Origin: Ignavibacteria bacterium
GTDB taxonomy: Bacteria; Bacteroidota; Ignavibacteria; Tepidaquicellales; Tepidaquicellaceae
Assembly (NCBI GenBank): GCA_019187405.1
Contig: JABAQZ010000011.1
Coordinates: 1 to 64,000 of the forward strand
DNA length: 64,000 nucleotides
Reading direction: 5' to 3'
Below the pieces are notes generated by a model that was given only the letters and a program-made list of their open reading frames with translations, searched no databases and had not been told where the DNA came from. Shown one piece after another: positions 753 through 31,561 of this stretch (position 1 is the stretch's first letter; each line of letters opens with the position of its first letter). The position numbers and the translations under genes are program-made.

Positions 753-3700
753 TTAAGGCAGGGCAACAGAAACGAAGTTAGCGGCATTATTATCGACAAT
801 TGATGCATCGCTGCCGTCAACGACTCTATCGCCATCTATATCAGAGACTATATAACCTGTTTCGAAAATTGAGGCAGCATTGTCCACTAAGTTTCCGTCG
901 CTGCCGTCAATAATGCCGTCCTGAAAAACGTCGCCACTGTATATAGCATATCTCACTGGCGCAGCATCTACTTGTATTTGATTGTTGCCGAATGCATTAG
1001 CTGCAGATGACATAAAATCATAGTTAAGTGTATTACCTGCGATGTAAGACTCGCCGCCATACTTGCTCCATGTCTCAAGAGCATTTCTGTGTTTTATCTG
1101 AATGTAATAAGTTCCGCTTACTGCATTTGAAAAAACGCATGCAGCCTTAAGCAAAGCAGAATCAAGTAAAGTTAAGCAGGAGTCTGCAATTGAATAGGGC
1201 GGTGAAGTTTGTCTCAGATATATTCTTACGGTGTCTTCCATATTGAGTCTGTTTGTTGAAGGATTATAGTATCCTTGTATAGCAAAATTGATGATGCCGT
1301 TAACGCCGCTTGAATCGGCACTCCATCTTGAAAAAGATGATAATCCGGAAATTGTAATTTCATTTAGAGAAGTATTTACCGTTCCGCCCATGTTAATCCA
1401 GTTAACCCCGGCATTTGTAGATTTAATTAATTTTAGGGTTGATTCCGGTCTGAGATTTAATTCAGATTCGTCAAACTTAAATTTTAAAGTTGCATTAAGT
1501 CCAGAGTTATTTGTTGGAGTAATATCAAAATAACGCTTAATGCTGCCTCCGGTCTGAACTGCGTGACCTCTTCTGATTTCGGTACTTCCGAGATTTGATG
1601 TTGATGTAAGTATTGCTCCGAAACCGGCAACGTTCAATGATGATGGTGCATTGATGGATCTTGTTGTCGTTAGATAACCTGCGGTTCCTTTGACAACATT
1701 ACCGGGTGATTCCAAAAGTGTACCCGTTGAGGAAACAGTAAGAACTTTTCCGTTAAGATCAAGTGTCCCAAGCTGAATAATCAGCGAATCGTTTACTGTA
1801 ACATTTCCTGCCAGATTTGTACCGGCAGAATTATTGCTTCGTAATTTACTGTAAGTAATTCCCGCTGTAGAAATAGTTTGCAATACATTGCTGTTGAATT
1901 CGACAGTTGAATTGGTTGTAGTGAATGTACCTGAATTTACAATCGGGTTTGATGCTTTTAATTTCAGCCAGCTGTTAGTAATATTAAAAATTCCAGCTGT
2001 ATTAATGGTAATGCTTTGCATCTGATGAGTACCTGTAAGAGTTACGTTTGCCTTTGCTGTAAAATCAGCATGAGTTAGAAAACTTCCTGTTCCGGAAAAA
2101 GCGGTAGTAGAATCAAAAGAGAATGAGCCGCTTGTATTTACTACTCCGTTATTAACAAAAACCGGACATTTGACAATTATAGATCCTCCCGTACTTGAAG
2201 CTGTAAGTGTGCCGTTATTTGTTGTGTTTCCGTAAATCAATAATGCCCTCCCGGAAATGTTACCGCCATTAATGGTTGCTCCTGCATCAATTGTTAAATT
2301 GCCGTAAAGACTTCCGTAGTAAGGCGTTATCTGATCATACGCGTATGTAGTTCCGGTATTGACGTTTAGATTAGCATTGAAAGCAGAGCCGCCGCGTAGA
2401 TTTAAGGAAACAGTATTCTGAGTTTTCACTGTTCCGGGTGAAGTAACAGATGTGCCTGATTGAACTTCAAACGTTCCTGAAGTAATAGTTAATGTTTTTC
2501 CGTTAGGATTTAAAACTCCTCCTGAATACAATCTAATATATGAAGGAGAGTAGGTAATATTATTCAGAAGAGTAACATTACCGGAAATGTAAGTATTTGT
2601 TGGATTAAATATACCGCTTCCTGAAATTGAAGTTGTGCTGTCCATATAAGCTGATCCGGCAGCTGTTAAGGTCCCGTTATTCACAAGAGTAGGACCGTTA
2701 ATGCTGTAAGAACCTGAGGAGTGTGAAGCAGTGATAGTTCCGTTATTGACAACATTGCCATACATAAAAAGATGTCTTCCGGAAGCATTGCCGCAATTAA
2801 GGGTTGCTCCGGCATCAACCGTCAAATTACCGTAAAGACTTCCGTCGTAAGGCGATATCTGATCATACGCGTATGTAGTTCCGGTATTGACGTTTAGATT
2901 AGCATTGAAAGCAGAGCCGCCGCGTAGATTTAAGGAAACAGTATTCTGAGTTTTCACTGTTCCGGGTGAAGTAACAGTTGTGCCTGATTGAACTTCAAAT
3001 GTTCCTGAAGTAATTGTTAATGTTTTTCCGTTAGGATTTAAAACTCCTCCTGAATACAATCCAATGTATGTAGGAGTATAAGTAATATTATTCAGAAGAG
3101 TAACATTACCTGAAATGTAAGTATTTGCCGGATTGAATATACCGCTTCCTGAAATTGAAGTTGTGCTGTCCATGTAAGCAGAGCCGATTCCGGTAACGGT
3201 CCCGTTATTCACAAGAGTAGGACCGTTAATGCTGTAGGAACCTCCTGTGCTTGATGCTGTGATAGTTCCGTTAATGATTACATCGCCATACATAGAGAGT
3301 TGCCTTCCGTAAATGTTTCCTGTATTAAGTGTAGCTCCTGCATCAACCACCAAATCTCCATACAGACTTCCTTCATAAGGCGATGAATGGTCATACGCGT
3401 ATGTAGTTCCGGTATTGACGTTTAGAATAGCATTCAAAGCAGAGCCGCCGCGAAGATTTAAGGAAACAGTATTCTGAGTTTTCACTGTTCCGGGTGAAGT
3501 AACAGTTGTACCTGATTGTACTTCAAACGTTCCTGAGGTAATTGTTAATGTTTTTCCGTTAGGATTTAAAACTCCTCCTGAATACAATACAATATATGAA
3601 GGAGAGTAGGTAATATTATTCAGAAGAGTAACATTACCTGAAATGTAAGTATTTGCTGGATTGAATATACCGCTTCCTGAAATCGAAGTTGTGCTGTCCA

Positions 3701-4388
3701 TATAAGCTGATCCGTCAGTTGTTAAGGTCCCGTTATTCACAAGAGTAGGACCGTTAATACTGTAAGATCCTCCGGAGCTTGATGCAGTGATAGTTCCGTT
3801 ATTGACTACATCGCCATACATAAAAAGATGTCTTCCGGAAGCATCGCCGCAATTAAGGGTTGCTCCGGCATCAACCGTCAAATTACCGTAAAGACTTCCG
3901 TCATAAGGCGATGTCTGATCATACGCGTATGTAGTTCCGGTATTGACGTTTAGATTAGCATTGAAAGCAGAGCCGCCACGTAGATTTAAGGAAACAGTAT
4001 TCTGAGTTTTCACTGTTCCAGGACCGTTGAGAATGCTTCCCAATGACATAGTTATATCCGTTCCGGAGCCGTCAGGGATAGTCAGAATAATGCCTAAATT
4101 TATTTTCAAGACGCCGCCGGAATCAATGACCATCTGATTTGCAGTAGTGCTCACGGTAACGGTTACGGTATTTGGATTTCTGATTGTAATGGTACCACTT
4201 GTATCATTTGGTATGCTTGTAGCGGCAAACCATGTTCCGCCTCCGTTTGTTGACATTACCCAGGTGGTAGTTGAATTCCAGTTGCCAGAAGCGATGCTAC
4301 TGAACAGTTCATTTGCCGAGTAAACATTTTGAGTGCATGTGAAAAGAGCAATAAAAATAATAGTAATTGAAAAAGGGAAAATTTTCAT
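753..4388 (-). CDS. Secreted tandem-repeat protein with C-terminal dockerin-like module
   Basis: This is a predicted exported protein of 1211 residues, probably a surface or extracellular structural protein; no enzyme motif was recognised. The chosen ATG at 4388 has AAGGAG seven bases upstream and opens with the signal peptide MKIFPFSITIIFIALF; an ATG 14 codons earlier is less likely. After about 120 residues come three nearly identical 176-residue repeats and a diverged fourth, rich in Gly, Asn, Thr and Ser and likely to form a beta-helix or beta-sandwich stack. A domain with the phrase SIKRYFDITP follows. The last ~170 residues contain an IKHRN.ETWSK block and two dockerin-like calcium loops (DGIIDGSD, DGDRVVDGSD), ending in FVSVALP. 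The same tail ends the 6509-14722 protein. No NYPNPFNP-type T9SS tail is present, so the export route is uncertain. Confidence 0.85.
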   Translation of the reverse strand: MKIFPFSITIIFIALFTCTQNVYSANELFSSIASGNWNSTTTWVMSTNGGGTWFAATSIPNDTSGTITIRNPNTVTVTVSTTANQMVIDSGGVLKINLGIILTIPDGSGTDITMSLGSILNGPGTVKTQNTVSLNLRGGSAFNANLNVNTGTTYAYDQTSPYDGSLYGNLTVDAGATLNCGDASGRHLFMYGDVVNNGTITASSSGGSYSINGPTLVNNGTLTTDGSAYMDSTTSISGSGIFNPANTYISGNVTLLNNITYSPSYIVLYSGGVLNPNGKTLTITSGTFEVQSGTTVTSPGTVKTQNTVSLNLRGGSALNAILNVNTGTTYAYDHSSPYEGSLYGDLVVDAGATLNTGNIYGRQLSMYGDVIINGTITASSTGGSYSINGPTLVNNGTVTGIGSAYMDSTTSISGSGIFNPANTYISGNVTLLNNITYTPTYIGLYSGGVLNPNGKTLTITSGTFEVQSGTTVTSPGTVKTQNTVSLNLRGGSAFNANLNVNTGTTYAYDQISPYDGSLYGNLTVDAGATLNCGNASGRHLFMYGNVVNNGTITASHSSGSYSINGPTLVNNGTLTAAGSAYMDSTTSISGSGIFNPTNTYISGNVTLLNNITYSPSYIRLYSGGVLNPNGKTLTITSGTFEVQSGTSVTSPGTVKTQNTVSLNLRGGSAFNANLNVNTGTTYAYDQITPYYGSLYGNLTIDAGATINGGNISGRALLIYGNTTNNGTLTASSTGGSIIVKCPVFVNNGVVNTSGSFSFDSTTAFSGTGSFLTHADFTAKANVTLTGTHQMQSITINTAGIFNITNSWLKLKASNPIVNSGTFTTTNSTVEFNSNVLQTISTAGITYSKLRSNNSAGTNLAGNVTVNDSLIIQLGTLDLNGKVLTVSSTGTLLESPGNVVKGTAGYLTTTRSINAPSSLNVAGFGAILTSTSNLGSTEIRRGHAVQTGGSIKRYFDITPTNNSGLNATLKFKFDESELNLRPESTLKLIKSTNAGVNWINMGGTVNTSLNEITISGLSSFSRWSADSSGVNGIINFAIQGYYNPSTNRLNMEDTVRIYLRQTSPPYSIADSCLTLLDSALLKAACVFSNAVSGTYYIQIKHRNALETWSKYGGESYIAGNTLNYDFMSSAANAFGNNQIQVDAAPVRYAIYSGDVFQDGIIDGSDGNLVDNAASIFETGYIVSDIDGDRVVDGSDASIVDNNAANFVSVALP
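1990..4019 (-). repeat. 528-bp in-frame tandem repeats (three close copies plus one diverged)
   Basis: The landmark encoding GTVKTQN recurs at exactly 528-bp intervals: units begin (minus strand) at 4019, 3491, 2963 and 2435. The first three units are highly similar at DNA level, including silent positions, and keep register without indels. The fourth resembles the others for its first ~150 bp and then diverges; its lower limit here is approximate. This points to recent duplication or ongoing gene conversion inside the gene. Confidence 0.9.
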
Positions 4389-4777
4389 TAAAAATCTCCT
4401 TAAATAATAGTTAGTTAAATACCTCTTCATACAATATTTGTTTTGAACTTTCTAAATATCAATCTAAGTTCGTATGGCGATACGAGAGATGACAATTAGA
4501 TTTGTATGAGAGAGGTATTAAATAATTTTTAATTTGGGAAATTCATCTCTTATCGCCATGTGGCAAAATTATGTTTACAGATTAACTGATTCAAGGAAAA
4601 ATATTTCAAGTTTTAGCAGGTATGAATAAGTTGAATCTGCTGTAAATGTTTGATATTTTGACAAATTTCAAACAAAGGGCTTTGTTTAAGAATTTATTTT
4701 CACCTTTTTAAATCAGATATTTTATTATCGGAATTTCAATTTTACATTAAATTATTCGCAAAGTACACTGATAGATA
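4389..4777. promoter_or_regulatory. Divergent intergenic region with an imperfect inverted repeat
   Basis: This 389-bp non-coding stretch lies between the divergent genes at 753-4388 and 4778-6214 and must hold their 5' signals. Visible in it are the minus-strand Shine-Dalgarno (complement of CTCCT at 4396-4400) and an imperfect inverted repeat. The left arm, 4474-4497, carries ATGGCGATA and AGAGATGA; the right arm, 4540-4558, carries TCATCTCT and TATCGCCAT. The left arm also contains a small hairpin, CGTAT/ATACG (4471-4484). No convincing promoter consensus was recognised and no ORF or RNA gene was seen. Confidence 0.5.
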
Positions 4778-6214
4778 TTGGAGAATTCAAAGTTAGTCAG
4801 ACTTTTAAAATCTTTAAATCAATATGAGATAAGACAATTCAGGGACTTTTTATGCTCGCCTGTATTTAACAAAAAGAAAATTCTAATCAGATTATTTGAC
4901 GAGCTTAAGAAGTATTATCCTGATTTTAAATCAGATAAACTAAGTGACGAGAAATTGTATGCGAGTGTTTATCCCGATAAAAAATATGATTACTTCAAGC
5001 TTAAAAATTCCATTTCCGATCTTTTCATACTGGGCAAAGAGTATCTTGAATTTTCAGGTTTTAGAAAAGATGAGGATGCCAAAGAAAGATATCTTCTCAA
5101 AGAACTTCGGTTCAGAAGTTTATTAAACATCTTTCAGCAGGTTCATAAATCAGCTCTTCAAAGAAATGAAAAAAAACTTGAAAAAGACGAGCAATACCTT
5201 CAGCATAAACTTTCGCTTACTGTCGAAGAACTAAACTATTTGACGCCTCAAATGCCTAATATGCATTTGCAGTATCAGCAGAAAATGCTGGACTTGTTCC
5301 TCGAATATTCCTTAATTAAGATTTTCAAAGTTTATAATGTGATGATGCATGAAGAGAAGCAGAATAATTTCAAATATGACAAATACTTGTTTGATGAACT
5401 TATGACTTTTACAGATAAATCAAAATTTGATAACCCGACTCTCAGAGTTTATCATCAGATAATATCTCTCGAAAGTAACCGTAACGATGAAAATTTTTAT
5501 AAACTGAAAGGAATCGGAGAAAAATATAAAAATTCATTGAGCGTATATGATACATACATGGTTTTTCTTCATCTTAACGGTTACTGTGCAAATGAATTTA
5601 ACGTCAACTCACGTACTGATCTTGCCACGATACATTTCGAGATTATTAAGGATAAAAACGAAACAGATTATACTACGCTTGGCAGTCTGCTTTATCCTGA
5701 TTTTATAAACGAAATTAAAATTGCTCTTCGTGCTGATGAGATTAAGTGGGCGGAAGATTATATAGAAAAGAACAAATCAAGATTAAGCAGCGAGAAAGAA
5801 AACACAATTTACTTCTGTAATGCAGTGCTTAATTTAAAGAAGGGAAATCCCGAAAAAGCTCTTGAGCTGCTTTCAAAAACAAATTTTCCAAACTTCATAA
5901 TAAAAGTTCAGGTAAAACTTCTTCAGCTTCAGATCTTATATGAATTGGAATACTTTGAGCAGGTATTTTCGTCAATAGATAATTTCAGGCATTATATTAA
6001 AAGAGAAAGCACAATTAAAGAAGACTTTAAAGAGACATTTTATGAATTTGTTAATATATTAAACGCGCTTATTAAACTGAAAACATTGAATTCTGAAAAT
6101 GGCAAAGATTATGAGCTTAACAAAATTAATTCTGATATTGAAAATATGAGATCAAATCAGTTTGGTTTAAAACTGTGGCTTAAGGATATGGTGAAATCAG
6201 ATTATAAATTTTAA
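4778..6214 (+). CDS. Conserved-looking helical protein of unknown function
   Basis: I do not recognise a characterised family for this 478-residue protein. It looks cytosolic: there is no signal peptide or membrane segment, and it is rich in Lys, Glu and Leu with long stretches compatible with alpha-helical (TPR-like) repeats. The N-terminal third is rich in aromatic and basic residues (NQYEIRQFRDFLCSPVFNKK). The frame opens with TTG at 4778 (TTG GAG AAT TCA), and no strong ribosome binding site precedes it, so the start is uncertain. It stands alone between two large secreted-protein genes that share a C-terminal module. Whether it serves them is unknown. Confidence 0.75.
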   Translation: MENSKLVRLLKSLNQYEIRQFRDFLCSPVFNKKKILIRLFDELKKYYPDFKSDKLSDEKLYASVYPDKKYDYFKLKNSISDLFILGKEYLEFSGFRKDEDAKERYLLKELRFRSLLNIFQQVHKSALQRNEKKLEKDEQYLQHKLSLTVEELNYLTPQMPNMHLQYQQKMLDLFLEYSLIKIFKVYNVMMHEEKQNNFKYDKYLFDELMTFTDKSKFDNPTLRVYHQIISLESNRNDENFYKLKGIGEKYKNSLSVYDTYMVFLHLNGYCANEFNVNSRTDLATIHFEIIKDKNETDYTTLGSLLYPDFINEIKIALRADEIKWAEDYIEKNKSRLSSEKENTIYFCNAVLNLKKGNPEKALELLSKTNFPNFIIKVQVKLLQLQILYELEYFEQVFSSIDNFRHYIKRESTIKEDFKETFYEFVNILNALIKLKTLNSENGKDYELNKINSDIENMRSNQFGLKLWLKDMVKSDYKF

Positions 6215-6249
6215 AAAAAATGATGTAATTCTGAAATATACTTTATTGG

Positions 6250-6359
6250 AATGAATGTAAATCCTTTCATCCAAACAGATATAAATTTAAAAGATTATGC
6301 TATTTATGTTTTAAAAATATTTACTTTCTAAATCTGCGAAAGGATTTTTTACATTCATT
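6250..6359. repeat. Long imperfect inverted repeat (possible MITE-like element)
   Basis: The left arm 6250-6268 contains AATGAATGTAA followed by ATCCTTTC. The right arm 6338-6359 is its reverse complement with a three-base bulge (GAAAGGAT, T-run, TTACATTCATT). The arms enclose about 70 bp of AT-rich DNA. The whole 110-bp unit lies in the 294-bp gap upstream of the 2737-aa protein gene. It has no adjacent T-run as a terminator would, and no transposase or clear target duplication was seen, so its nature is unresolved. Confidence 0.5.
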
Positions 6360-6508
6360 GAATTCAATTTTCAACTTGAGTAATTTCTCAAAATTTAATT
6401 TTATTCTTTATCATGGTAATTTATGTAATAAATCCGGTTCAAGTATATTTTTTTTTAAATAAATGTAAAACCTTCTAACTAATTATCTTTTCTACCCCAA
6501 AACAAAGT

Positions 6509-9500
6509 ATGAATAAAACAATCGGTCTGACAGTTGTTTCCTTAATTTTGATATTCCAGCTTAATGTTTATAAACACACAAACCGTAGTTTAAAAAACGA
6601 ATCTGACTATCGTGACTTTTTCAATGCTGAAGAGATAGAAGACATGAACAAACACATCAACTCATTTAAATTGAGTAACGGCATTTTACCGGGAGTTGTG
6701 GATGTTGAGCAAGCCGGAATAACTAATATTGCAAAAAACCTTCAGCGAGAAGTATCAGCTTTATTCATTAATAATAAAATTAACGATGAGGATGAACATA
6801 GTTTAATATCCGCGGCAGGAAATAAATCCGACTTGCGAAAACCTTTTTACTCTGACAATTCCAAGTATACGCCTCTTGCGGGAGATTATACGATTGGAAT
6901 GTCTATGTTTAATAGAGTAACCGGAAAAAAAATTACATTTGAGCGAAAGGTGAAAAAAGTTTTTAAAGAAGTTTATGAATTCGAGGGAGAGACTAATGGC
7001 AGCGATAAATCTGAATTAAATGATCCGATTTCTTTTTCATCATCAGCAGTAAAAAAAATATTGAAGGAAGTTGATGAAGTATTTTATATTCCCACTGAAA
7101 ATGGTTTGAAGTATGAAGGAAAGCTTTTTGCATCGAGAGAGGAATATCCCGGAATGCAGTCTGAAGCGGGTTCGGGAGTATATGCAACAATCACGGCGGC
7201 AATCACTGATTTAAACGCAAGAGGAATCAACGGACCGGTAAGATTTTTGCTTTTGGATGCAAGTTACTCAAGCGCTACTGAATCATACCCAATCATAATC
7301 AATTCGATTGACGGAAGCTCTGACACAAATACTGTTACGATAAGACCGCAAACCGGAGTAACGTCGGTAATATCGGGAAATGTTTCAGGAGCGATGATTA
7401 AATTTAACGGAGCTGACAATGTAATCATTGACGGTTCGAATTCAGGCGGAAGCGACAGAAGTCTGACAATAATAGATTCGAGCTCGACGGGAATCGGAAT
7501 CTGGATAGCAAGTGATTCAACAAATGACGGAGCTATGTTTAATACAATTAAAAATTGTAAGATAATCGGTTTGTCGCATGTTACCACATTTGCCGGAATT
7601 TTTTCCGGAAGCGGAATATCATTTGGAGGAGAAGCTGAATCACCGAATTCAAATCTTACTATTCATAACAACGAAATAACAAAAGTTCAGAATGCCATTT
7701 ATCTCAGGGGAAATTCCGTAAATGCTGATACGGCAATGACAATTTCCGATAATACATTAGGTACAGCATCTGCCAATCTTGGATTCAGGGGAGTTTACAT
7801 TGGAAATTCGGAAAACTTTAACATTCACGGCAATGTGATTTCAAATGTCATTTCTTATCCATCATCAACGGAAACAATGCACGGCATTCAAATCGGGGAA
7901 AACATAAGCGGCGGCAATATTTTTAAAAATAAAATTTCAACTATTAAGCAAATAAACACATCAGCCGGATGGGGAGCAGCGGGAATACTGCTTGGGGCGT
8001 TTACTTCTTTGGCTAATGTTACTGTATATAACAATTTCATATCCGATGTAAAAGGATTCGGGTATCCGGATGTAAATTCTTATGATAATGGATACGGAAT
8101 TATGGTTGAAAGCGGCGGAGGCTATAACATTTATTTCAATACGGTATCCATGAATACAAATCAGACAAACACAAACGGAATTACTGCAGCATTAAATGTT
8201 TCGAGCGCCGTGTCTACATCAAATTCGGTCAATGTCAGAAACAATATTTTCTCAAATACTCAGACTATCGGATCAAACAGATACTGTGTATATTCCGGAG
8301 CTTCGGCGTCAGTTTATTCGGATATAAATTACAATGATTATTACTATGCTTCCAATCCGAATCTCGGATATCTCGGCGGAAACAGAGCAAATCTTATTAC
8401 CTGGCAGACAGCTACCGGTGATGATTTAAACAGCATTTCAGGAAATCCAAGAATTTTCAGCAGTACAGATCTGCATATCGATACTGCTGTTTATTCACCT
8501 TGCAGGGCAGGAGCAATTGTAATTTCGGGAATTACTGATGACATTGACGGCAACAGCAGAAACGTTTCAAAGCCGGACATCGGTGCAGATGAAATTAATG
8601 TTCAGCCATTGGCGGGAGATTATACTATTGGTGCAGTGTTGTTTAACAGTATTACGGGAAGAAAAATTACGTTTGAAAAAACTGTAATTAAAGTTGTTAA
8701 AGAATCTTATGAAAATGCGGATGAAACTGATGGAAGAGATAAATCAAACTTTCAGAATTCGGAGTCAGTATTAAAACCAAACATGAAAAAAGCAGCGAAG
8801 GAAGTTGATGAGATTATTTGTGTTCCTATGGAAAATGGGTCGAGGTATGAAGGTCCGCTCTTTGTTTCGAAAGAAGATTTTTTAAATATGCAAGCCGATG
8901 CTGGAGCGGGGGTTTATGCTACGATAACAGCAGCAGTTACAGATCTGAATTACAAAGGAGTAAGTGCTCCGGTTAGATTTCTGCTTTTAGATGCAAATTA
9001 TACGAGCGCAACCGAGACATATCCTTTAACAATCAATCCGATATCCGGAAGCTCGGCAATAAATACCGTTACTATCAGGCCTGCAACCGGAATTACATCA
9101 TTGATCACGGGAAATAATTCAGCGTCAATATTTAAAATAAACGGCGCGGATTATTTTATTATTGACGGATCGAATAGCGGAGGCAGTGACAGAAGTCTTA
9201 CAATAATAGATTCAAATTCTGCCGGTTCAGGTATATGGCTTGCAAGCGCTTCTGCAAATGACGGAGCGAATTTTAATACAATTAAAAATTGTAAAATTAA
9301 TGGACAGTCGCAGTTTACTTCATTTGCGGGAATTGTATCGGGCAGCGGTACCATAATAGGTAATGAATCTGCATATCCAAATTCAAATCTTTCGATTGTA
9401 AATAATGAAATCACCAAATTCCGTAACGCAATTTATCTGATAGGAAATTCATCATTGAATGATTCATTGATGACAGTTTCAGGCAATACATTAGGTTCTA

Positions 9501-12500
9501 TATCCGAAAATCTTGGCATGAGAGGAATACTTATCGGGAATTCAAAAAATTTTAATATTAACGGTAATATTATTTCAGGCATAATTTCTTCATCCTCTTC
9601 AATTGATTTAATTTCAGGAATCCAAACATCATTAAACATTAACGGTGGACGAATATATAATAATAAAATCAGCGGCATTAATCAGACAAATACCGGCGGT
9701 TATGCTGCCGCAGGTATATTGCTTAAAACTCTTAATTCAGCTTCCGATGTTTCGGTTTATAATAATTTCATTTCTGATATAATTGGATACGGAGATGCAA
9801 ATCCGGATGAAAACGGAAACGGAATCAGAGTGGATTCAGGTGGCGGATATAATATTTATTTCAATACTGTTTCGTTAAAAACAGAACAGTCAAATCCGGC
9901 AAGTGTTTCAGCTGCTTTGTATATATCGGGAAACGTAACAATATCAGGCGCATTAAATATTAAAAATAATATTTTTTCAAACACACAAACAATCGGAACA
10001 GAAAGATACTGTGTTTATTCAGGCGGAACAGCTTCAGTGTATTCCGGTATAGATAACAATGATTATTATTTCGCATCAAATCCAAATCTCGGATATCTCG
10101 GAGGAAATCATTCTACTCTTTCAGGCTGGAAAACTGCAACAGGAAAAGATTCATCGAGCATTTCAGGTAATCCCATGTTTGCCGACAGTGCAGATCTGCA
10201 TATTGATTTGCATTCGGCATCTCCTTGCAATTCAGCGGGTGTACCTGTATCAGGAATTTCGGATGACATTGATGGCAATGCAAGAGACAGCTTATTTCCT
10301 GACATCGGAGCAGATGAGTATAATCCGGGAATGCTTGCGGGAAATTATCTCGTGGGTGTCTCAATGTTTAACAGTGTGACAGGAAAAAGTATTACTTTTA
10401 ACCGGATCGTCCGAAAAGTAACGAAAGAGGTTTATGAAAGTTATGAAGAAAAAAACGGAAAAAGTAAATCTAATATTTTGGATGCCAATTCCATTTCAGG
10501 TTTTCCAATTAAAAAAGTTTTGAAAGAAACTGATGAGATAACATTCGTTCCGATGCTAAACGGTAAAGTATATGATGGTTCTCTTTTTGTTTCCAAAGAA
10601 AATTTTCCGGATATGTTTGCTGATTCCATTAGAGGAATTTATGCAACGATTTCTGCAGCTGTTGCAGATCTAAATTCAAGGGGAGTGAGCGGTGCAGTCA
10701 GATTTTTACTGATTGATACACTTTACACAAGTGCAAGCGAAACTTATCCTCTTACCATTAATCAAATTGCCGGAAGCAGTTTGATAAATACGATAACATT
10801 CAGACCTTATGACGGTATCAGTTCAAAAATTACGGGTAACAATGCTGACGGGATCTTTAAGTTAAACGATGCTGACTTTATAATAATTGACGGTTCGAAT
10901 TCCGGAGGCAGTGACAGAAGCTTGACATTAATTGATTCAAATTCCTCCGGAGCAGGAATATGGATCAGTGGAGCATCCGGAGGAAACGGCACAGCATCAA
11001 ACACAATTAGAAACTGCAGGATAAAAGGATTATCGCAGTTTACTACATTTGCGGGAATCTTTTCGGGCAGCGGAATTTCTTTTGAGAGTGAGACAGGATC
11101 AATGAATACAAACTTGTCAGTGATTAATAATGAAATAACAAATGTGCAGAATGCAATTTACATAAGAGGCAGTTCAGTTTCATTGGACAGCGCTGCCGTA
11201 ATTTCCGGAAATGAACTTGGAAAAGATTCGGGCAATCTTGGATACAGAGGAATCTTTATCGGTAATTCGCGGATGTTCAGGATTTATAATAATGTAATTA
11301 CCGGAGTAATATCATCACCATCTTCGTCGGCAATCATGCAAGGTATTCAGGTTGGAAATAATATTGACGGAGGGAATATTTACAACAATAAAATTTCTAA
11401 AATTAAGCAAACGAATTCTCCGATAGGCTGGGGCGCTGCAGGAATACTTCTGGGGGCTTCTTCTGCTGCATCGAATATTTTAGTTTACAATAATTTTATC
11501 TCGGATGTTACGGGTTACGGATTTGGAGACGTGAATTCTTATGATAATGGTTACGGAATTATGATTGAAAAAGGAGGAGGTTACAGTCTATTTTATAATA
11601 CTGTTTCAATGAATACCGATCAAATCAATCCCAATGGAATTCCTTCGGCATTGAACATTTCTTCTGACATTCAAACAATGAGCTCCATTGCAATATTGAA
11701 CAACATTTTTTCCAATACACAAACAATCGGGGCAAACAGGTACTGCATTTATTCCGGAGCTTCAGCATCGGTATATTCTGATATTAATTACAATGATTAT
11801 CATCATTCAACGAGTCCGAATCTCGGTTACTTGGGAGGTAACAGGGCATCTCTTTCAAACTGGCGGATTGCATCTGGCAAAGACACCAACAGCATTTCTG
11901 CAGATCCATTGTTTGCCGGTATCAATGATCTGCATATTGATTCTACAGATATATCTCCATGCAATGATTCCGGAGTTTTCGTACCCGGAATTAATTTTGA
12001 CATAGATGGAAATATCAGAGATTCAATTAATCCCGATATTGGCGCTGATGAGTTTAATTTATTTCATAAAGATGCGGGAGTTACAAATATAATTTATCCT
12101 TTTGAAGGAATTAATGCTCTTACTTCGGATACAGTTGTTCCGGTTATTACAATAAAAAATTTCGGAAACATAAATCTTTACACTCCATTTAACATAACAT
12201 GCATTATAAATCCCGGAGGATATATAAGTACGATTTCAGACACATTATCAGCCGGGCTCGAGAGGAATGTAACTTTTACAGCAGGATTTATACCGTCTCC
12301 GAATACGACATACACAATTACAGTTTTTACAAGTCTTGAAGGTGACAGAGATAATTCAAATGACACGCTTGAGCAAACTTCTTCATTTATTAACGTAAAG
12401 CCTAAAATATTCTCTTTCTATCCTGAAAGCGGAGCTGTTGGAACTAAAGTTGTAATAAAAGGCAAAGGATTCAGCAATGTAGTTTCAAATAATGTTGTGC

Positions 12501-14722
12501 TTTTTGGTGCAGTAAGAGCAGAAATTATATCAGCTGATGAAGACAGCATTTCAGTTTCAGTACCGGCGGGGGCAAACTATGAATTTTTAAGCGTAACAAA
12601 TCTTGACAGTAATCTTACCGGTTATTCTACTAAGCCGTTTATAGTTACATTTTCAGGAGGATGCAAACCGGACTTTGCTCCGGTTACCGGATTTTCTACT
12701 GGGGCAGCTCCAAATGTTGCAAAGATTGGCGATATAGATTCTGACGGCAAATCCGATCTTGTATCGCTTAACAAATCGGGAAACAGTATTTCAGTATTGC
12801 GGAATATTTCGGATACAAGCGGAATTAATTTTGAACCAAAAATAGATTTCAGTACCGGAGGAACTCTTCCTGATGCAATGAGCCTTGCTGACATTGATGG
12901 AGACGGCAGACTCGATATTATTACCGGCGATACTTTTTTATCAGTGTTCATAAATACTTCTGACACAGGCAATATCAGTTTTGCAATAAGAAAAGATTTT
13001 TCAGCTTCCGCAAGTATTGTTAACATTGAAATAAACGATTTTAACGAAGACGGAAAACCTGACATTGCATATACAACGACGGATTCTTTAGAAGTTCTAA
13101 AAAACATATCCGACTCAGTTAATATAAACTTTGCTGCTGCCAGCGAAAGTTATGTTGTTAGCGGTAACAGTCTCATTGAATCCGGAGATATTGACGGAGA
13201 TGGGAAGCATGATATCATAGCTTACAATGGAATTAATTCCGTAGTTCTCAGAAATAATTCTTCAAATAATAATTTAAGTTTTACTGAAAATTTAGTTTCT
13301 TTTTCAGGAAATACGTTAACAACTTTTCAAATTGGTTTAAGTGATATAGATGCTGACGGAAAACATGATTTGGTATTCTGTTCTGAAATTAGCAGCTTAC
13401 TGTATGTTTACAAGAATACTTCTGCAATAGGCGTAATAAGTTTTGACGTTCCATATAATTTTAATTTTTCTGATAATACCGGCTCTTTAACTATTGGAGA
13501 TTATGACGGAGACGGCAAGCCGGATGTTGCTGCGGGAAGCGATTCATTGCTGCATTTGATAATAAATAACTCAATACCTGGTAACATCAGTTTCTTCAAT
13601 CATAAAGCTTATCCTTCACTTTCCAAAGTAAATTTGTATAACGGTGATCTAAGCGAAGACGGTAAACCTGAAATTGTTTCGGCAAACGAAGCAGGTAATG
13701 CCATTGATGTTTTTAAAAATCTGTCAGCCTCTGCTCAATTGAGCGCTGCTGTTTATGGAAACGGCGCTCTTGTAATAAACGGGTCTGTAACTCCTGACAC
13801 GGCAAATCACACAGATTTTGGATTTGTATCTTCTGACACTTCGGCTGTAAGAACTTACATTCTTCATAACTTAAGTTCGGACAGTCTTATGATTTCAAAC
13901 ATCCTTATGACTGGGGGTGATTCAGCAATGTTTTTTCCGGATACGTTAAATACTATATTAAAGATTGCTGCGGGAGATTCTGCAGCTTTTGACGTAACAT
14001 TTATACCTTCATCGGCTGGAGTGAAATCTTCCGTAGTGAAAATAATAACAAGCATTAATTCGGGAACAGAATGTTTTATCGCTCAAGATTATACTTTTGC
14101 GGTTCGGGGAACAGGTACTACTCACGGGATTATAAACATTTCGTTAATTCAGGAGGGATTTTATAATACTGCCGTTGACAGGCTTAGATTAAAAGATACA
14201 GTAAAAGCTTATTTGCATTCAAGCATTTCACCTTATGAAGCAATAGATTCTGCAGTTGGACTTATTGATACTTTGACATTTACAGACTCATTTATATTTC
14301 CAAATGCCGGAAATGGAATTTATTATATAAAGATTAAACACAGAAATACAATAGAGACATGGAGTAAATCAGGCGGCGAGGTATTTACAGAAGGAACAAC
14401 AATGAATTATGATTTTACCATTACTGCATCACAGGCATTGGGAAATAATCAGAAACAAGTTGCATCATTTATAGATGCACCGGTTCCGGAGAAAAATATT
14501 TTAAAAGAATCTTCAGTCATAAGGTTTGGTATATACTCGGGTGACGTAAATCAGGATGGCGTAATTGATGCATCGGATTTATCATTGATCGATAACGATG
14601 CGGTTAATTTTTTGACGGGATATTATTCATCAGATGTAAATGGTGATGACAATGTTGACGGCAATGATTTGTCAATAACGGATAATAATGCATCTGATTT
14701 TATTAATGCAGTAGTTCCATGA
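6509..14722 (+). CDS. Giant secreted modular protein (beta-helix units, TIG, VCBS, dockerin-like tail)
   Basis: This predicted exported protein has 2737 residues. A hydrophobic stretch (residues ~5-20) could be a signal sequence, but no clear cleavage site is visible. Three units of about 575 residues start near residues 121, 701 and 1275 with LAG[DN]Y.[IV]G. Each has a [IV]IIDGSNSGGSDRSLT[IL]IDS block and N/G-rich parallel beta-helix-like repeats, and closes with DIDGN.R....PDIGADE. Then follow a CARDB-like segment (~1855-1960), an IPT/TIG domain (~1965-2050), FG-GAP/VCBS repeats with DxDxDG loops (~2055-2410) and an anchor-type Ig domain (~2412-2535). The final module has IKHRN.IETWSK and two dockerin-like calcium loops, ending INAVVP, and is shared with the 753-4388 protein. 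The likely role is surface adhesion or carbohydrate contact; no catalytic residues were identified. Confidence 0.85.
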   Translation: MNKTIGLTVVSLILIFQLNVYKHTNRSLKNESDYRDFFNAEEIEDMNKHINSFKLSNGILPGVVDVEQAGITNIAKNLQREVSALFINNKINDEDEHSLISAAGNKSDLRKPFYSDNSKYTPLAGDYTIGMSMFNRVTGKKITFERKVKKVFKEVYEFEGETNGSDKSELNDPISFSSSAVKKILKEVDEVFYIPTENGLKYEGKLFASREEYPGMQSEAGSGVYATITAAITDLNARGINGPVRFLLLDASYSSATESYPIIINSIDGSSDTNTVTIRPQTGVTSVISGNVSGAMIKFNGADNVIIDGSNSGGSDRSLTIIDSSSTGIGIWIASDSTNDGAMFNTIKNCKIIGLSHVTTFAGIFSGSGISFGGEAESPNSNLTIHNNEITKVQNAIYLRGNSVNADTAMTISDNTLGTASANLGFRGVYIGNSENFNIHGNVISNVISYPSSTETMHGIQIGENISGGNIFKNKISTIKQINTSAGWGAAGILLGAFTSLANVTVYNNFISDVKGFGYPDVNSYDNGYGIMVESGGGYNIYFNTVSMNTNQTNTNGITAALNVSSAVSTSNSVNVRNNIFSNTQTIGSNRYCVYSGASASVYSDINYNDYYYASNPNLGYLGGNRANLITWQTATGDDLNSISGNPRIFSSTDLHIDTAVYSPCRAGAIVISGITDDIDGNSRNVSKPDIGADEINVQPLAGDYTIGAVLFNSITGRKITFEKTVIKVVKESYENADETDGRDKSNFQNSESVLKPNMKKAAKEVDEIICVPMENGSRYEGPLFVSKEDFLNMQADAGAGVYATITAAVTDLNYKGVSAPVRFLLLDANYTSATETYPLTINPISGSSAINTVTIRPATGITSLITGNNSASIFKINGADYFIIDGSNSGGSDRSLTIIDSNSAGSGIWLASASANDGANFNTIKNCKINGQSQFTSFAGIVSGSGTIIGNESAYPNSNLSIVNNEITKFRNAIYLIGNSSLNDSLMTVSGNTLGSISENLGMRGILIGNSKNFNINGNIISGIISSSSSIDLISGIQTSLNINGGRIYNNKISGINQTNTGGYAAAGILLKTLNSASDVSVYNNFISDIIGYGDANPDENGNGIRVDSGGGYNIYFNTVSLKTEQSNPASVSAALYISGNVTISGALNIKNNIFSNTQTIGTERYCVYSGGTASVYSGIDNNDYYFASNPNLGYLGGNHSTLSGWKTATGKDSSSISGNPMFADSADLHIDLHSASPCNSAGVPVSGISDDIDGNARDSLFPDIGADEYNPGMLAGNYLVGVSMFNSVTGKSITFNRIVRKVTKEVYESYEEKNGKSKSNILDANSISGFPIKKVLKETDEITFVPMLNGKVYDGSLFVSKENFPDMFADSIRGIYATISAAVADLNSRGVSGAVRFLLIDTLYTSASETYPLTINQIAGSSLINTITFRPYDGISSKITGNNADGIFKLNDADFIIIDGSNSGGSDRSLTLIDSNSSGAGIWISGASGGNGTASNTIRNCRIKGLSQFTTFAGIFSGSGISFESETGSMNTNLSVINNEITNVQNAIYIRGSSVSLDSAAVISGNELGKDSGNLGYRGIFIGNSRMFRIYNNVITGVISSPSSSAIMQGIQVGNNIDGGNIYNNKISKIKQTNSPIGWGAAGILLGASSAASNILVYNNFISDVTGYGFGDVNSYDNGYGIMIEKGGGYSLFYNTVSMNTDQINPNGIPSALNISSDIQTMSSIAILNNIFSNTQTIGANRYCIYSGASASVYSDINYNDYHHSTSPNLGYLGGNRASLSNWRIASGKDTNSISADPLFAGINDLHIDSTDISPCNDSGVFVPGINFDIDGNIRDSINPDIGADEFNLFHKDAGVTNIIYPFEGINALTSDTVVPVITIKNFGNINLYTPFNITCIINPGGYISTISDTLSAGLERNVTFTAGFIPSPNTTYTITVFTSLEGDRDNSNDTLEQTSSFINVKPKIFSFYPESGAVGTKVVIKGKGFSNVVSNNVVLFGAVRAEIISADEDSISVSVPAGANYEFLSVTNLDSNLTGYSTKPFIVTFSGGCKPDFAPVTGFSTGAAPNVAKIGDIDSDGKSDLVSLNKSGNSISVLRNISDTSGINFEPKIDFSTGGTLPDAMSLADIDGDGRLDIITGDTFLSVFINTSDTGNISFAIRKDFSASASIVNIEINDFNEDGKPDIAYTTTDSLEVLKNISDSVNINFAAASESYVVSGNSLIESGDIDGDGKHDIIAYNGINSVVLRNNSSNNNLSFTENLVSFSGNTLTTFQIGLSDIDADGKHDLVFCSEISSLLYVYKNTSAIGVISFDVPYNFNFSDNTGSLTIGDYDGDGKPDVAAGSDSLLHLIINNSIPGNISFFNHKAYPSLSKVNLYNGDLSEDGKPEIVSANEAGNAIDVFKNLSASAQLSAAVYGNGALVINGSVTPDTANHTDFGFVSSDTSAVRTYILHNLSSDSLMISNILMTGGDSAMFFPDTLNTILKIAAGDSAAFDVTFIPSSAGVKSSVVKIITSINSGTECFIAQDYTFAVRGTGTTHGIINISLIQEGFYNTAVDRLRLKDTVKAYLHSSISPYEAIDSAVGLIDTLTFTDSFIFPNAGNGIYYIKIKHRNTIETWSKSGGEVFTEGTTMNYDFTITASQALGNNQKQVASFIDAPVPEKNILKESSVIRFGIYSGDVNQDGVIDASDLSLIDNDAVNFLTGYYSSDVNGDDNVDGNDLSITDNNASDFINAVVP

Positions 14723-16159: not shown

Positions 16160-18049
16160 ATGAAGCTATATCATTTGTTAAATGAACAACTTAAGAAAGT
16201 GCCGGAATTTGTTTCCGATACGGGCGAACTAAAGAAATGGGTAGTAATTAACAAAGCGCAGAATTTTGATGAAACCTTGATTGGTCTGCTGCTTGAAAAT
16301 AAAGAGCTTAAATCCAAATTTTTTCTGGAGGTAAAGAAAGCTTTGGTTTTTAATCAGCCGTTGTTCATTCAGTTCCTTGAACAAAAAAATTATTTGAATG
16401 ACAGTTACACTGCTTACAAGAAGAAAATCGGACTGAATATTGACGGAAAATATCTGAATCAACGAAACGAAGTTACGCTTGTCTGGCCGTACAAAGACTG
16501 CGTGCTCGAAGGCGGACAAAGCAAGGAAGAGGATAAGCGCGATGAAATCTTTTTTAATGAAACACTTGCACAAGATGAAATCACGCAATTATTCGAACCG
16601 AAAGTTCTCACCAATGTAAAGAAATACACGGCTGAAGGCGAAAAGCCGTTTGATAAATTCAACAGAAATGAAGAAGGAACAATCACGGATAATCTCATCA
16701 TCAAAGGAAATAATCTTCTGGCTCTGCATTCACTGAAAGAAGAGTTTGCAGGGAAAGTGAAGTTGATTTATATTGACCCGCCTTATAATACGGGAAATGA
16801 TTCATTTAAGTATAATGACAGTTTTAATCATTCAACATGGCTGACGTTTATGAAGAATAGACTTGAGATTGCTAGAGAACTATTAAAAGAAAATGGTATT
16901 ATTTTTGTGCAATGTGATGATAACGAACAAGCCTATTTAAAAGTAATAATGGATGACATTTTTAAAAGAGAAAATTTTATATCGAACATTGTATGGAGAG
17001 GGAGAGGAGGGAGACAGGATAGTAAATTTATTGCACAGATTCATGAAATGATTATCGTTTTTGCTAAATCAAAAGAATTTTTGAAAATTAATAGACAAAG
17101 AGTTCAGGATAATTCTGCTTATCTGTTTTTTGATAAGGAGAAAAATAAAAAATACAAAATACAATTGATTCGTAAATGGGGTAGTAATAGCCGAAAAGAG
17201 GATAGACCAAACTTATTTTACGAAATAGAATTTGAAGGTAAGAAAATAAAGCCTGTTTTACCAAATGGAGCAGATGGACGTTGGAGGTGGAGTAAGGATA
17301 AGCTACTAAAAGCTATTGAACAAAATTTGGTAATTAAATTAGAAAAGAATGGTAGAGTTGAGTTGTATGAAAAAATTTATGAGAGAGATGGGGAAAAAGA
17401 AGTTGTATATAATTCATGGTTTGAAGAAACTTTTTCAGGTCAAGGTACTAAACAATTAGAGAATCTTTTTTCCAAAAAAGTTTTTGATTATCCCAAACCA
17501 GAACAACTTTTAAAAAAAATAATAGAAATAGGAACTTGTGAAAAAGATATTATACTTGATTATCATTTGGGAAGTGGCACTACGACTACAACTTCTCATA
17601 AATTAAATAGACAGTACATTGGAATCGAACAAATGGAGTATGTAAAAAATATTGTCGTTGAACGATTAAAAAAAGTAATTAAAGGTGAGGAAGGCGGAAT
17701 AAGTGAATCCGTCAATTGGGAAGGTGGCGGTGAATTCATCTACTTCGAACTAAAAAAATACAACGAAGCATTCATAGAGAAGATCAAAAAAGCAAAGAAT
17801 ACGAAAGAGTTATTAGAGATTTGGGATGAAATGAAAGACAGGTCATTTCTGAATTACAATGTTGACATAAAGAGGCAGGAAGAAAATATTGAAGAATTTA
17901 AATCACTTACATTGAAAGAACAAAAGAAACTTCTTGTTGAATTGCTCGACAAGAATCAGCTTTATGTAAATTTGTCTTCAATGGATGATAAAGATTTTAA
18001 AGTTACGGATAAAGAAAAGAAAGTGACAAAAGATTTTTATAAACTATAA
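16160..18049 (+). CDS. mod: Type III restriction-modification system, DNA methyltransferase (Mod) subunit
   Basis: This is an N6-adenine (beta-class amino) DNA methyltransferase of 629 residues that both recognises the target site and modifies it. Catalytic motif IV is DPPY at residues 206-209 (IYIDPPYNTG) and comes before the AdoMet motif I, DYHLGSGTT at 467-475, the order expected of type III Mod proteins. Between them lies a variable segment (~270-430), presumably containing the target recognition domain. The partner res gene follows at 19408, separated by a Bro-N gene and its broken copies. The last ~35 bp of mod (KKVTKDFYKL) are echoed in degenerate form at 18187-18229 and 18541-18566, showing that the 3' end took part in local duplications. 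Key motifs are intact, so activity is plausible. Confidence 0.9.
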   Translation: MKLYHLLNEQLKKVPEFVSDTGELKKWVVINKAQNFDETLIGLLLENKELKSKFFLEVKKALVFNQPLFIQFLEQKNYLNDSYTAYKKKIGLNIDGKYLNQRNEVTLVWPYKDCVLEGGQSKEEDKRDEIFFNETLAQDEITQLFEPKVLTNVKKYTAEGEKPFDKFNRNEEGTITDNLIIKGNNLLALHSLKEEFAGKVKLIYIDPPYNTGNDSFKYNDSFNHSTWLTFMKNRLEIARELLKENGIIFVQCDDNEQAYLKVIMDDIFKRENFISNIVWRGRGGRQDSKFIAQIHEMIIVFAKSKEFLKINRQRVQDNSAYLFFDKEKNKKYKIQLIRKWGSNSRKEDRPNLFYEIEFEGKKIKPVLPNGADGRWRWSKDKLLKAIEQNLVIKLEKNGRVELYEKIYERDGEKEVVYNSWFEETFSGQGTKQLENLFSKKVFDYPKPEQLLKKIIEIGTCEKDIILDYHLGSGTTTTTSHKLNRQYIGIEQMEYVKNIVVERLKKVIKGEEGGISESVNWEGGGEFIYFELKKYNEAFIEKIKKAKNTKELLEIWDEMKDRSFLNYNVDIKRQEENIEEFKSLTLKEQKKLLVELLDKNQLYVNLSSMDDKDFKVTDKEKKVTKDFYKL

Positions 18050-18070
18050 TAGTTATTGATTTAATATAAT

Positions 18071-18184
18071 CAGTTGTCCGAAAAAATCGGACAACTGAAA
18101 ATCAGACTTTTGAAAGAAGGAAATGAAACGGTTGCAAATTGTAACCGATTGAAATTGAAATCATACAAAACCGGAGTTGCATAA
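18071..18184 (+). pseudogene. Bro-N gene remnant carrying two palindromic cassettes
   Basis: The stop-free frame from 18071 to a TAA at 18182-18184 reads QLSEKIGQLK, then KEGNETVANCNRLKLK and SYKTGVA. These correspond to the middle of the intact Bro-N protein at 18575-19411 (LSEKIGQLKM...KSYKTDVA). There is no start codon and the N- and C-terminal parts are missing. The fragment contains palindromes at 18071-18097 and 18129-18147 and lies 21 bp after mod. Confidence 0.7.
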
Positions 18185-18238
18185 CCAAAGAAAGTGACGA
18201 AAGTGAAAAGTATTTTTATAAACTTAAATAATGATAAT

Positions 18239-18493
18239 ATGGATAACAAAACTGCAGTTAAGGTATTCGAATCAAGACAGATACGAACCATTTGGAATGA
18301 AGCTGAAGAGAAATGGTATTTTTCCGTAATAGATGTAATCGAAGCATTAACCGAAAGTTCAAATGCCAGAAAATACCGGAGTGTTCTTAAAACAAGGTTA
18401 AAGAAAGAAGGAAGTCAGTTGGCTACAAATTGTAGTCAACTGAAATTGAAGTTTTCCGAAGATATTTGTATAAAGCAAACAGGAATAAAATGA
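18239..18493 (+). pseudogene. Truncated Bro-N domain gene copy
   Basis: The 84-residue product starts MDNKTAVKVFESRQIRTIW and matches residues 1-70 of the intact gene at 18575 (KWYFSV.DVIE.LT; KEGS.L) before diverging straight after the palindrome at 18416-18442 and stopping. A further LSEKIGQ-type cassette lies just beyond the stop at 18494-18516. I read it as a degraded duplicate, although a free Bro-N fragment acting as a regulator cannot be excluded. Its start is the ATG at 18239, which aligns with the start of the intact copy; a GTG further upstream in frame is not needed. Confidence 0.65.
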
Positions 18494-18574
18494 ACTGTCC
18501 GAAAAAATCGGACAGTCGAATAAGATTCAGCGACCAATGACGATAAAATTTAACAAACTTAAATAGAGATAAGC

Positions 18575-19411
18575 ATGGACAAGAAGACGGCAATAAAGAT
18601 GTTTGAATCAAAGCAAGTACGAACTATATGGGATGAAACTGAAGAGAAGTGGTATTTTTCGGTTACTGATGTGATAGAAGTGTTGACCGGTACAGACCGA
18701 CCAAGAAAGTATTGGAATGATTTGAAAAACAAGCTAAGGAAAGAAGGAAGTGAGTTGTCCGAAAAAATCGGACAACTGAAAATGGAAGCTTCAGATGGAA
18801 AATCATACAAAACTGACGTAGCCGAAACCGAGCAGTTGTTTCGATTGATCCAGATAATTCCTTCTCCCAAAGCAGAGCCATTCAAATTATGGATTGCGAA
18901 AGTTGCAAGAGAGCGTATAGATGAAATCTCCGATCCGGAAATCGGAATTGACAGATTAATGGAAACTTATCTGAAGAAAGGTTACAGCAAAGAATGGATT
19001 AATCAGAGACTTAAGAGCATTGAAGTCAGAAAAGAATTAACCGATGAATGGGAAAAAAGAGGAGTAAAGAAAGGACAGGAGTTTGCGATACTAACAGATG
19101 AGATTACTAAAGCTTGGAGCGGATTTACGGTAACACAGTACAAAAAACATAAAGAGCTGAAGAAAGAGGGCTTAAGAGACAACATGACAAATCTCGAACT
19201 TGTTTTGAATATGCTCGCAGAAGCAACCACGACAGAAATCAGCAAAGAAAAAAAGCCCTCAACATTTTTTCAAAGTAAGAATATTGCAAAGCAAGGCGGA
19301 ACTATTGCAGGAAATACAAGACGGGAAATAGAAGCAAAGACCGGGAAAAAAGTTGTAAGCAAATTATCCGCAAAGACACTGCTTGAAAACAAAATTAAAA
19401 AGTTACAATGA
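18575..19411 (+). CDS. Bro-N domain protein, DinD/phage-antirepressor-like
   Basis: This 278-residue protein has an N-terminal Bro-N domain (~1-110; EEKWYFSVTDVIEVLT) and a C-terminal half recalling DinD-type proteins (RKELTDEWEKRGVKKGQEFAILTDEI, with a later LELVLNMLAEA.TTEIS). Bro-N proteins bind DNA or act as regulators in phages and mobile islands; the biochemical role of this subgroup is unknown. A palindrome (18753-18777) is read in frame as LSEKIGQL near residues 61-68. The gene sits between mod and res and overlaps res by four bases (ATGA at 19408), so translation is probably coupled. Two broken copies of its N-terminal part lie upstream. Confidence 0.8.
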   Translation: MDKKTAIKMFESKQVRTIWDETEEKWYFSVTDVIEVLTGTDRPRKYWNDLKNKLRKEGSELSEKIGQLKMEASDGKSYKTDVAETEQLFRLIQIIPSPKAEPFKLWIAKVARERIDEISDPEIGIDRLMETYLKKGYSKEWINQRLKSIEVRKELTDEWEKRGVKKGQEFAILTDEITKAWSGFTVTQYKKHKELKKEGLRDNMTNLELVLNMLAEATTTEISKEKKPSTFFQSKNIAKQGGTIAGNTRREIEAKTGKKVVSKLSAKTLLENKIKKLQ

Positions 19412-30652: not shown

Positions 30653-31561
30653 ATGAAGATAAAGTTTTTATTAACGGGAGTTATATCAGTTTTTATTTTC
30701 GGCACAAATGCATTTTCACAGAATGACGGTGCGGCTAGTACCGGACTTGCATTTTTAAAATTCGGCGCTGGAGCAAGATCAATTGCAATGGGAGAAGCAT
30801 TCTCGTCAGTTTCGGATGATGCAACTGCATTTATATATAATCCTGCGAGATTAAACAAAGGTAACTTAAATAACATTGTTTTCATGCATAATCAGTCTGT
30901 TCAGGATCTAAATACTGATTATGTTGCAGCAAAATTTTCAATCAGCAAAAAAGTTTCACTTGGAGTTGGTTTTTTTACCTCTTCTATAAATGACATTGAA
31001 ATCAGAAATATTCCGGGCGCTCCTATCGATAAATTCGATTCGAGAAATCTCTCAACCGGCATTTCATTTGGATATTCGCTTAATCCGGAATTATCGCTTG
31101 GGTTAACCGGAAAATTTCTTTATGAAAAAATATACGTTGACGAAGCTTCAGGTCTGGCATTCGATTTTGGAGTTGATTATTCAAAGAAGAATTACAGTAT
31201 AGCTTTTGTGGTTCTCAATCTTGGTTCCGTGAATGAACTAAAGAATCAGAGTACTAAACTTCCTGCTTCCGTAAGATTGGGAGGTAGTTATAATTTTAGC
31301 AAGGATAAATTTAAATTTCTCTTAAGTTTAGACGGTTTCAAAGTATTAAACGGCGGAAAATTCCATATTCATTCAGGCGGTGAAGCAGGGTATAAAGATT
31401 TCTTATTCTTAAGACTTGGTTATCAGACTGATTATGATAACAAAGGATTTACGACCGGGATCGGGTTTAAATATAAATCTCTTAGTCTGGATTATGCATT
31501 TGTTCCTTATACTAATGATTTTGGAACAGGCAATACGATTTCTTTGGGATTAAATTTCTGA
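30653..31561 (+). CDS. PorV/PorQ-family outer-membrane protein (second of two)
   Basis: This 302-residue exported barrel has a signal peptide ending near NAFSQ and the family signature LAFLKFGAGARSIAMGEAF followed by SDDATAFIYNPA. It is shorter than its neighbour and closer to the family consensus. It is likely an outer-membrane FadL-like barrel of the T9SS-associated PorV/PorQ group. It follows the first copy with a two-base gap and precedes the glycan locus by 16 bp, so the secretion and glycan genes may share a transcript. Confidence 0.85.
   Translation: MKIKFLLTGVISVFIFGTNAFSQNDGAASTGLAFLKFGAGARSIAMGEAFSSVSDDATAFIYNPARLNKGNLNNIVFMHNQSVQDLNTDYVAAKFSISKKVSLGVGFFTSSINDIEIRNIPGAPIDKFDSRNLSTGISFGYSLNPELSLGLTGKFLYEKIYVDEASGLAFDFGVDYSKKNYSIAFVVLNLGSVNELKNQSTKLPASVRLGGSYNFSKDKFKFLLSLDGFKVLNGGKFHIHSGGEAGYKDFLFLRLGYQTDYDNKGFTTGIGFKYKSLSLDYAFVPYTNDFGTGNTISLGLNF

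Follow-up and report, generated by a model that had tools for sequence, protein, structure and literature searches.

Two large secreted proteins encoded in a stretch of 64,000 nucleotides (the window) from a member of the Ignavibacteria have otherwise unrelated sequences but share a C-terminal ending, which raises the question of what this ending does. We favor, with a probability of about three in four, the view that it is an X-module-dockerin (X-Doc), by which secreted proteins dock to cohesin-like domains of partners that carry type A tails of the type IX secretion system (T9SS) and are thus displayed on the cell surface indirectly.

The common ending of two window proteins

The first protein, P0001, consists of 1225 amino acid residues if translated from the ATG at position 4430 or of 1211 residues if translated from a later in-frame ATG (MKIFPFS...), which is the better signal peptide start. 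Its body (window positions 753 to 4430) is built of several near-identical tandem repeats of ~180 residues and has no match to any Pfam family above the cut-off. The gene looks monocistronic at its 3' end. The body of the second protein, P0002, includes three repeated β-helix-type units, IPT/TIG and FG-GAP repeats, and a choice-of-anchor-D-like domain. Both are likely to be large, adhesin-like repeat proteins. No cohesin-like genes are found next to either one. Farther along the window, a 629-residue protein encoded at position 16160 has the DPPYNTG DNA-methyltransferase motif; judging by this motif, its gene and the next two (positions 16160 to 21972, plus strand) may form a type III restriction-modification cluster.

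The preliminary description of this DNA had pointed to the common ending, and the similarity is real: the last ~180 residues of P0001 and the last ~198 residues of P0002 are 46% identical over ~190 positions (184 bits; E = 3e-64), and both genes are found at the positions it gave (Table 1). The IKHRNxxETWSK block, the two D-x-x-x-D-x-x-x-D-x-x-D loops, and the final xxP right before the stop codon are all there. Both proteins also lack a recognized T9SS or FlgD tail, as claimed, with zero matches to Por_Secre_tail, CHU_C, and FlgD. Searches of the two proteins against Pfam and NCBIfam show no match to the module above the cut-offs, and the models of T9SS C-terminal domains (TIGR04183, TIGR04131, and type C) have no above-cut-off match in these proteins or in 90 modules.

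Table 1. Features of the two genes and their shared module, by window position
Feature	Positions	Strand	Remarks
P0001 gene	753..4430	-	Secreted repeat protein; X-dockerin module at its C terminus
P0001 X-dockerin module, 181 aa	756..1298	-	Ends with the last residue ahead of the stop; AlphaFold2 pLDDT 97.9; Foldseek top 10 are X-dockerins without exception
P0001 X-module-like β-sandwich with HRNxxETWS motif	954..1298	-	Module residues 1-115, boundary approximate
P0001 dockerin calcium loop 1, DVFQDGIIDGSD	897..932	-	Module residues 123-134
P0001 dockerin calcium loop 2, DIDGDRVVDGSD	807..842	-	Module residues 153-164
Terminator-like stem-loop 3' of P0001	699..725	-	Consensus match alone; total found does not exceed chance expectation
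P0002 gene, 2737 aa	6509..14722	+	Secreted, module at the end
P0002 X-dockerin module, 198 aa	14126..14719	+	Linker insert separates its halves
P0002 dockerin calcium loop 1, DVNQDGVIDASD	14543..14578	+	
P0002 dockerin calcium loop 2, DVNGDDNVDGND	14633..14668	+	

The structure of the module was modeled with AlphaFold2 from an alignment of 90 sequences, and similar folds were sought in the PDB with Foldseek. The model (pLDDT 97.9; pTM 0.91) shows a β-sandwich followed by two loop-helix units, with the helices after the loops at residues 132 to 143 and 162 to 173, the arrangement of a duplicated F-hand. All of the top ten PDB matches are type II X-module-dockerins of Clostridium thermocellum (E values from 3e-4 to 5e-3; probability 1.00), and the alignments span both halves of the module, as for an X-module and dockerin that form a single unit; the next matches are transthyretins, which cover the sandwich alone. 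A sequence profile search of the PDB returns nearly exclusively dockerins. The Pfam Dockerin_1 profile matches 63 of the 90 module members at E ≤ 0.1 (the best at 2.6e-10); in the window, the Pfam dockerin profile gives P0002 a below-cut-off E value of 0.2 and has no match in P0001. In both calcium loops, positions 1 and 12 are Asp in 90 of 90 members, position 5 is Asp or Asn in 89 to 90, and position 9 is Asp or Glu in 86 to 88, in agreement with the dockerin pattern D-x-[ND]-x-D-G-x-x-D-x-x-D (PF00404; types I and II). Because of the fold matches of the model, the dockerin matches of the PDB profile search, and the near-invariant calcium ligands, the module is identified, on its predicted fold, as an X-Doc: a β-sandwich rigidly fused to a two-loop calcium dockerin. 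The earlier labels “dockerin-like” and “surface-docking” are thus supported and can be sharpened.

Placement of the module and exchange with T9SS tails

Searched with a profile made from two sequences, the genome (3.78 Mb) yields ~96 intact genes for module proteins, each with a single module, at E values down to 1e-119, which excludes a chance origin of the common ending. The module is C-terminal in most of these: 81 of the 96 copies stop within 3 residues of its final proline and another 3 within 9 residues, 9 extend for a further 26 to 98 residues that lack a T9SS motif, and in 3 a type A tail follows. A crude rule assigns signal peptides to 78 of 93 untruncated frames, and inspection finds them in nearly all the remaining ones. 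The module is similarly placed in 79 related loci, mostly from Ignavibacteria but also from Flavobacterium and Chitinophaga. The sampled module proteins include peptidases (two subtilases of family S8, M1, M14, M12B-like, and M23) as well as a GH9 cellulase, glucose/sorbosone dehydrogenase-like, arylsulfotransferase-like, and LamG lectin-like proteins, and repeat proteins.

Several individual loci deserve mention. A canonical NPFNP type A tail immediately follows the module in G000:C17:25895-26749, C26:9434-10267, and C26:37085-37882. Charged extensions of ~26 to 98 residues, often starting with PGAEP or PGGEP, are seen in G000:C32 (22758-23291 and 25984-26517) and in loci L047, L092, and L098. 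A 44-kb contig (G000:C27:1-44495) carries eight module genes, three of which are tandem paralogues of ~1,280 residues. Decayed copies, remnants with in-frame stops, are found at G000:C1:238022-238252 and C18:6260-6436.

The preliminary description proposed to check whether the module is always C-terminal on signal-peptide proteins and mutually exclusive with T9SS tails. The first holds for the 81 copies but not for four class-conserved proteins of ~2,040 residues (loci L263 to L266), which consist of a cohesin-like domain, the dockerin, a second cohesin-like domain, and a type A-like tail; the second is nearly, but not strictly, true, given the three tail-preceding copies. An internal location had been named beforehand as a refuting observation. 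Such copies disfavor a strict C-terminal sorting signal and favor a docking module.

For 33 of 243 module proteins there is a homologue whose body can be aligned as far as the tail boundary but whose ending is a type A T9SS domain, in a sample consisting of the sequence that surrounds module genes. The most similar pair with good coverage shares 68% identity across 572 of 580 body residues; the three remaining homologue tails, scored as “other,” resemble type A variants by eye. Since homologues swap one ending for the other, the module and the type A tail, as judged from these alignments, fill one and the same functional position.

Type A tails number at least 150 in the genome itself, which also encodes SprA and seven PorV-family proteins that score over the cut-off and could be specialized T9SS carriers; no type B tail in it exceeds the cut-off. 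Two PorV-family outer membrane proteins are encoded by adjacent genes in the window (29628 to 30650 and 30653 to 31561, plus strand). A broader module profile, which includes an HRNHLxxMS subfamily, finds the module in 53 of 395 Bacteroidota genomes. SprA is present in all 53 versus 303 of 395 overall (hypergeometric P = 2e-7), an association that is weaker than its number because nearly all the listed SprA-negative genomes belong to one family.

The strict C-terminal position of most copies, the exchange with type A tails, the universal presence of SprA in module genomes, and a set of PorV-family paralogues large enough for specialized carriers could all mean that the module is a new T9SS C-terminal sorting domain, read by the translocon or by a PorV-type carrier, and that the cohesin-like neighbors described below are unrelated cargo. 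We consider this unlikely. The module has a dockerin fold and not the seven-stranded Ig-like fold of T9SS tails (PMC10202324), it matches none of the NCBIfam T9SS models above the cut-offs, it occurs internally ahead of type A tails and, in nine proteins, ahead of further residues, and this explanation leaves the conserved cohesin-like partners unaccounted for.

Probable cohesin-like partners

According to the preliminary description, no cohesin partner could be recognized. This is true within the window but not elsewhere in the genome, where cohesin-like proteins with type A tails often adjoin module genes. They were found solely through the gene neighborhoods of module genes. In Ignavibacteria, this genome among them, many module genes are immediately followed by a gene for a protein of 280 to 410 residues, composed of an N-terminal domain of ~140 residues and a type A tail. 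Cohesin-like domains of this genome include those at G000:C17:40589-41023 and C25:33436-33882, and examples of adjacent pairs are those at L142 (556 and 292 residues), L172 (577 and 331), L056 (576 and 303), and, in Flavobacterium buctense, L107. Class relatives that have few module genes encode a protein of ~440 residues, F1, just downstream of the module gene in 12 of 12 loci. An initial F1 profile was dropped since it matched many open reading frames of this genome through common FN3-like and type A regions; its replacement covers the N-terminal domain alone.

The N-terminal domain was modeled from 11 sequences (pLDDT 86.8; pTM 0.81). Of the 16 PDB structures that match it best, 14 are cohesins (probability 0.99 to 1.00; moderate TM scores of ~0.45 to 0.52), as expected for a cohesin fold, and a single PDB entry, 4u3s, tops both fold searches, with its chain A (cohesin) matching this domain and its chain B (X-Doc) matching the module. 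Homology between the two main variants of the domain is supported by hhalign (E = 3e-6; probability 88). One neighbor of a module gene (L258:4056-4877), which has a Por_Secre_tail, is recognized by the Pfam Cohesin model (PF00963) at 33.8 bits versus a cut-off of 24.1. The main family does not reach the gathering score of that model, most such domains are unrecognized by Pfam and NCBIfam, and the genome itself yields a single sub-threshold Pfam Cohesin match, which contains a stop. Comparison of the cohesin-like profiles with the one Pfam-positive cohesin by hhalign gives no match. The main family of neighbor domains is therefore termed cohesin-like on the strength of its predicted fold.

A cohesin-like profile of 31 sequences matches 40 of the 395 Bacteroidota genomes, and 38 of the 40 also carry the module, where ~5 would be expected from its overall frequency of 53 in 395 (Fisher P = 3e-38, subject, like all the co-occurrence and pairing counts, to phylogenetic nonindependence). 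Adjacency in the genome itself (12 of 16; P = 1.7e-8) was set aside as ascertainment biased, many of the seeds having been taken from loci retrieved around module genes; reliance is therefore placed on genomes that gave the profile no sequence. By comparison of coordinates, 20 of 25 such genomes have a match no more than ~1 kb away from a module gene, and direct adjacency was seen in all 11 loci that were reread (L267 to L277), one of which comes from a genome, G294, that had supplied another profile sequence. The profile finds no match in 15 of the 53 module genomes, but since just 8 or 9 candidates were scored per genome, absences in the phylum searches are not firm, and two of these 15 (G243 and G353) have cohesin-like neighbors by eye or by Pfam.

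Both domains can also be found in a single protein. In addition to the ~2,040-residue proteins, contig C30 of this genome encodes proteins of 471 and 439 residues with an N-terminal cohesin-like domain and a C-terminal module, which resemble adaptor scaffoldins. The combination of several tandem cohesins with a carbohydrate-binding module, typical of a cellulosome scaffoldin, is absent from the proteins found, which carry one or two cohesin-like domains. A locus conserved across the class (L207 to L218) encodes a module protein of ~700 residues and its paralogue, the cohesin-like F1, sometimes a WD40 protein, an outer membrane protein with an OmpA domain, a response regulator, and a protein of ~740 residues, which may be a sensor kinase.

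The genome encodes ~16 to 19 cohesin-like proteins versus ~96 dockerins, which speaks against the docking view. Cohesin-like neighbors are missing from the majority of the 96 module genes, and copies without an adjoining cohesin gene retain their calcium loops. The last two observations would fit a calcium-stabilized capping or adhesion domain that has no dedicated partner and whose neighbors are simply coregulated surface proteins. However, the pairing is kept in distant genera, the pairs are fused within single proteins, and the X-Doc match extends beyond the calcium loops to both halves of the module, which makes this explanation even less likely than direct sorting.

Proposed docking mechanism and related systems

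In the favored docking mechanism, some 96 Sec-exported hydrolases, lectin-like proteins, and repeat proteins would each carry one X-Doc, nearly always at the C terminus. The receptor would be the cohesin-like domain near the N terminus of a partner that ends in a type A tail, is carried through SprA, and is fixed to the cell surface, and the dockerin proteins would be displayed through that cohesin in place of a T9SS tail of their own. Tail swapping would then mean that attachment to the surface has become indirect instead of direct. We infer that the binding between module and cohesin is calcium dependent and that cohesins and dockerins form specific pairs; the surface location of the dockerin proteins and their route through the outer membrane would likewise follow from this scheme. 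They would most likely cross that membrane as folded passengers on the cohesin partner; otherwise, the T9SS would have to recognize the module directly.

T9SS substrates exit SprA through its lateral opening while bound to a carrier (PMC10994853), which makes co-export with a cohesin plausible. We tentatively suggest that dockerin-tailed proteins without an outer membrane signal of their own might fold in the periplasm, bind a type A-tailed cohesin, and pass through SprA together with it, although we hold this doubtful. If so, the T9SS secretome would be much larger, by a plug-and-socket passenger mechanism, than the count of C-terminal domains suggests, and the prediction of T9SS cargo from these domains alone would overlook a large class of proteins.

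Bacterial groups that were believed to lack cellulosome-type docking seem to have a version of their own: for this lineage, ~96 X-dockerins and T9SS-tagged cohesin-like partners contradict the picture of docking-free bacteria. Indirect attachment would reveal an otherwise hidden fraction of the surface proteome, explain secreted proteins that have no T9SS tail, and supply testable receptor-ligand pairs. The literature searched, which included few subscription papers, showed no report of this module, of an expansion to ~96 copies, or of pairing with T9SS-tagged cohesins. Judging by its title, a 2009 article by Peer et al. (FEMS Microbiol Lett) reportedly deals with noncellulosomal cohesin and dockerin modules in all three domains of life.

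The pairing of cohesins with X-dockerins is already known from clostridial cellulosomes. In the type II system of C. thermocellum (CipA XDoc; PDB entries 2B59, 4U3S, and 5G5D), the C-terminal unit likewise combines a rigid X-module with a two-loop calcium dockerin, the cohesin is likewise located on a cell-anchoring protein, and the best fold matches of both partners come from the same complexes. Here, however, sequence identity is 10 to 16%, the cell has a Gram-negative outer membrane, the cohesin would be delivered by the T9SS instead of an S-layer anchor, and each of the ~96 dockerin proteins, mainly peptidase and adhesin cargo, has its own X-module. The X-dockerin and cohesin folds and the single GH9 cellulase would suit an ordinary enzyme-carrying cellulosome gained from Clostridia by gene transfer, but this is very improbable, given just 11 to 14% identity to clostridial X-Doc, a family widespread in Bacteroidota with its own HRN motif, cargo dominated by peptidases and adhesin-like proteins, and single cohesins on T9SS cargo, with no tandem-cohesin scaffoldin among the proteins found.

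The type A, B, and C C-terminal domains of the T9SS (PMC10202324) are, like the module, found at the C termini of Sec-exported proteins in T9SS-positive hosts, and type A domains swap with it; the module differs in its fold, the lack of a sequence match, its sometimes internal location, and its cohesin-like partner. Docking has also been described in another member of the FCB group, “Candidatus Stygibacter” (Cloacimonadota), in which enzymes bear dockerins and a scaffoldin with tandem cohesins has a C-terminal domain of the T9SS type (PMC8542988). There, as here, dockerins are found on secreted peptidases and glycosidases and the cohesin protein ends in a type IX domain. “Candidatus Stygibacter,” however, has few enzymes, recognizable domains, and one tandem-cohesin scaffoldin of 3,755 residues (PMC8542988), whereas the genome analyzed here combines ~96 X-dockerins with many paired single-cohesin partners, mostly unrecognized by Pfam.
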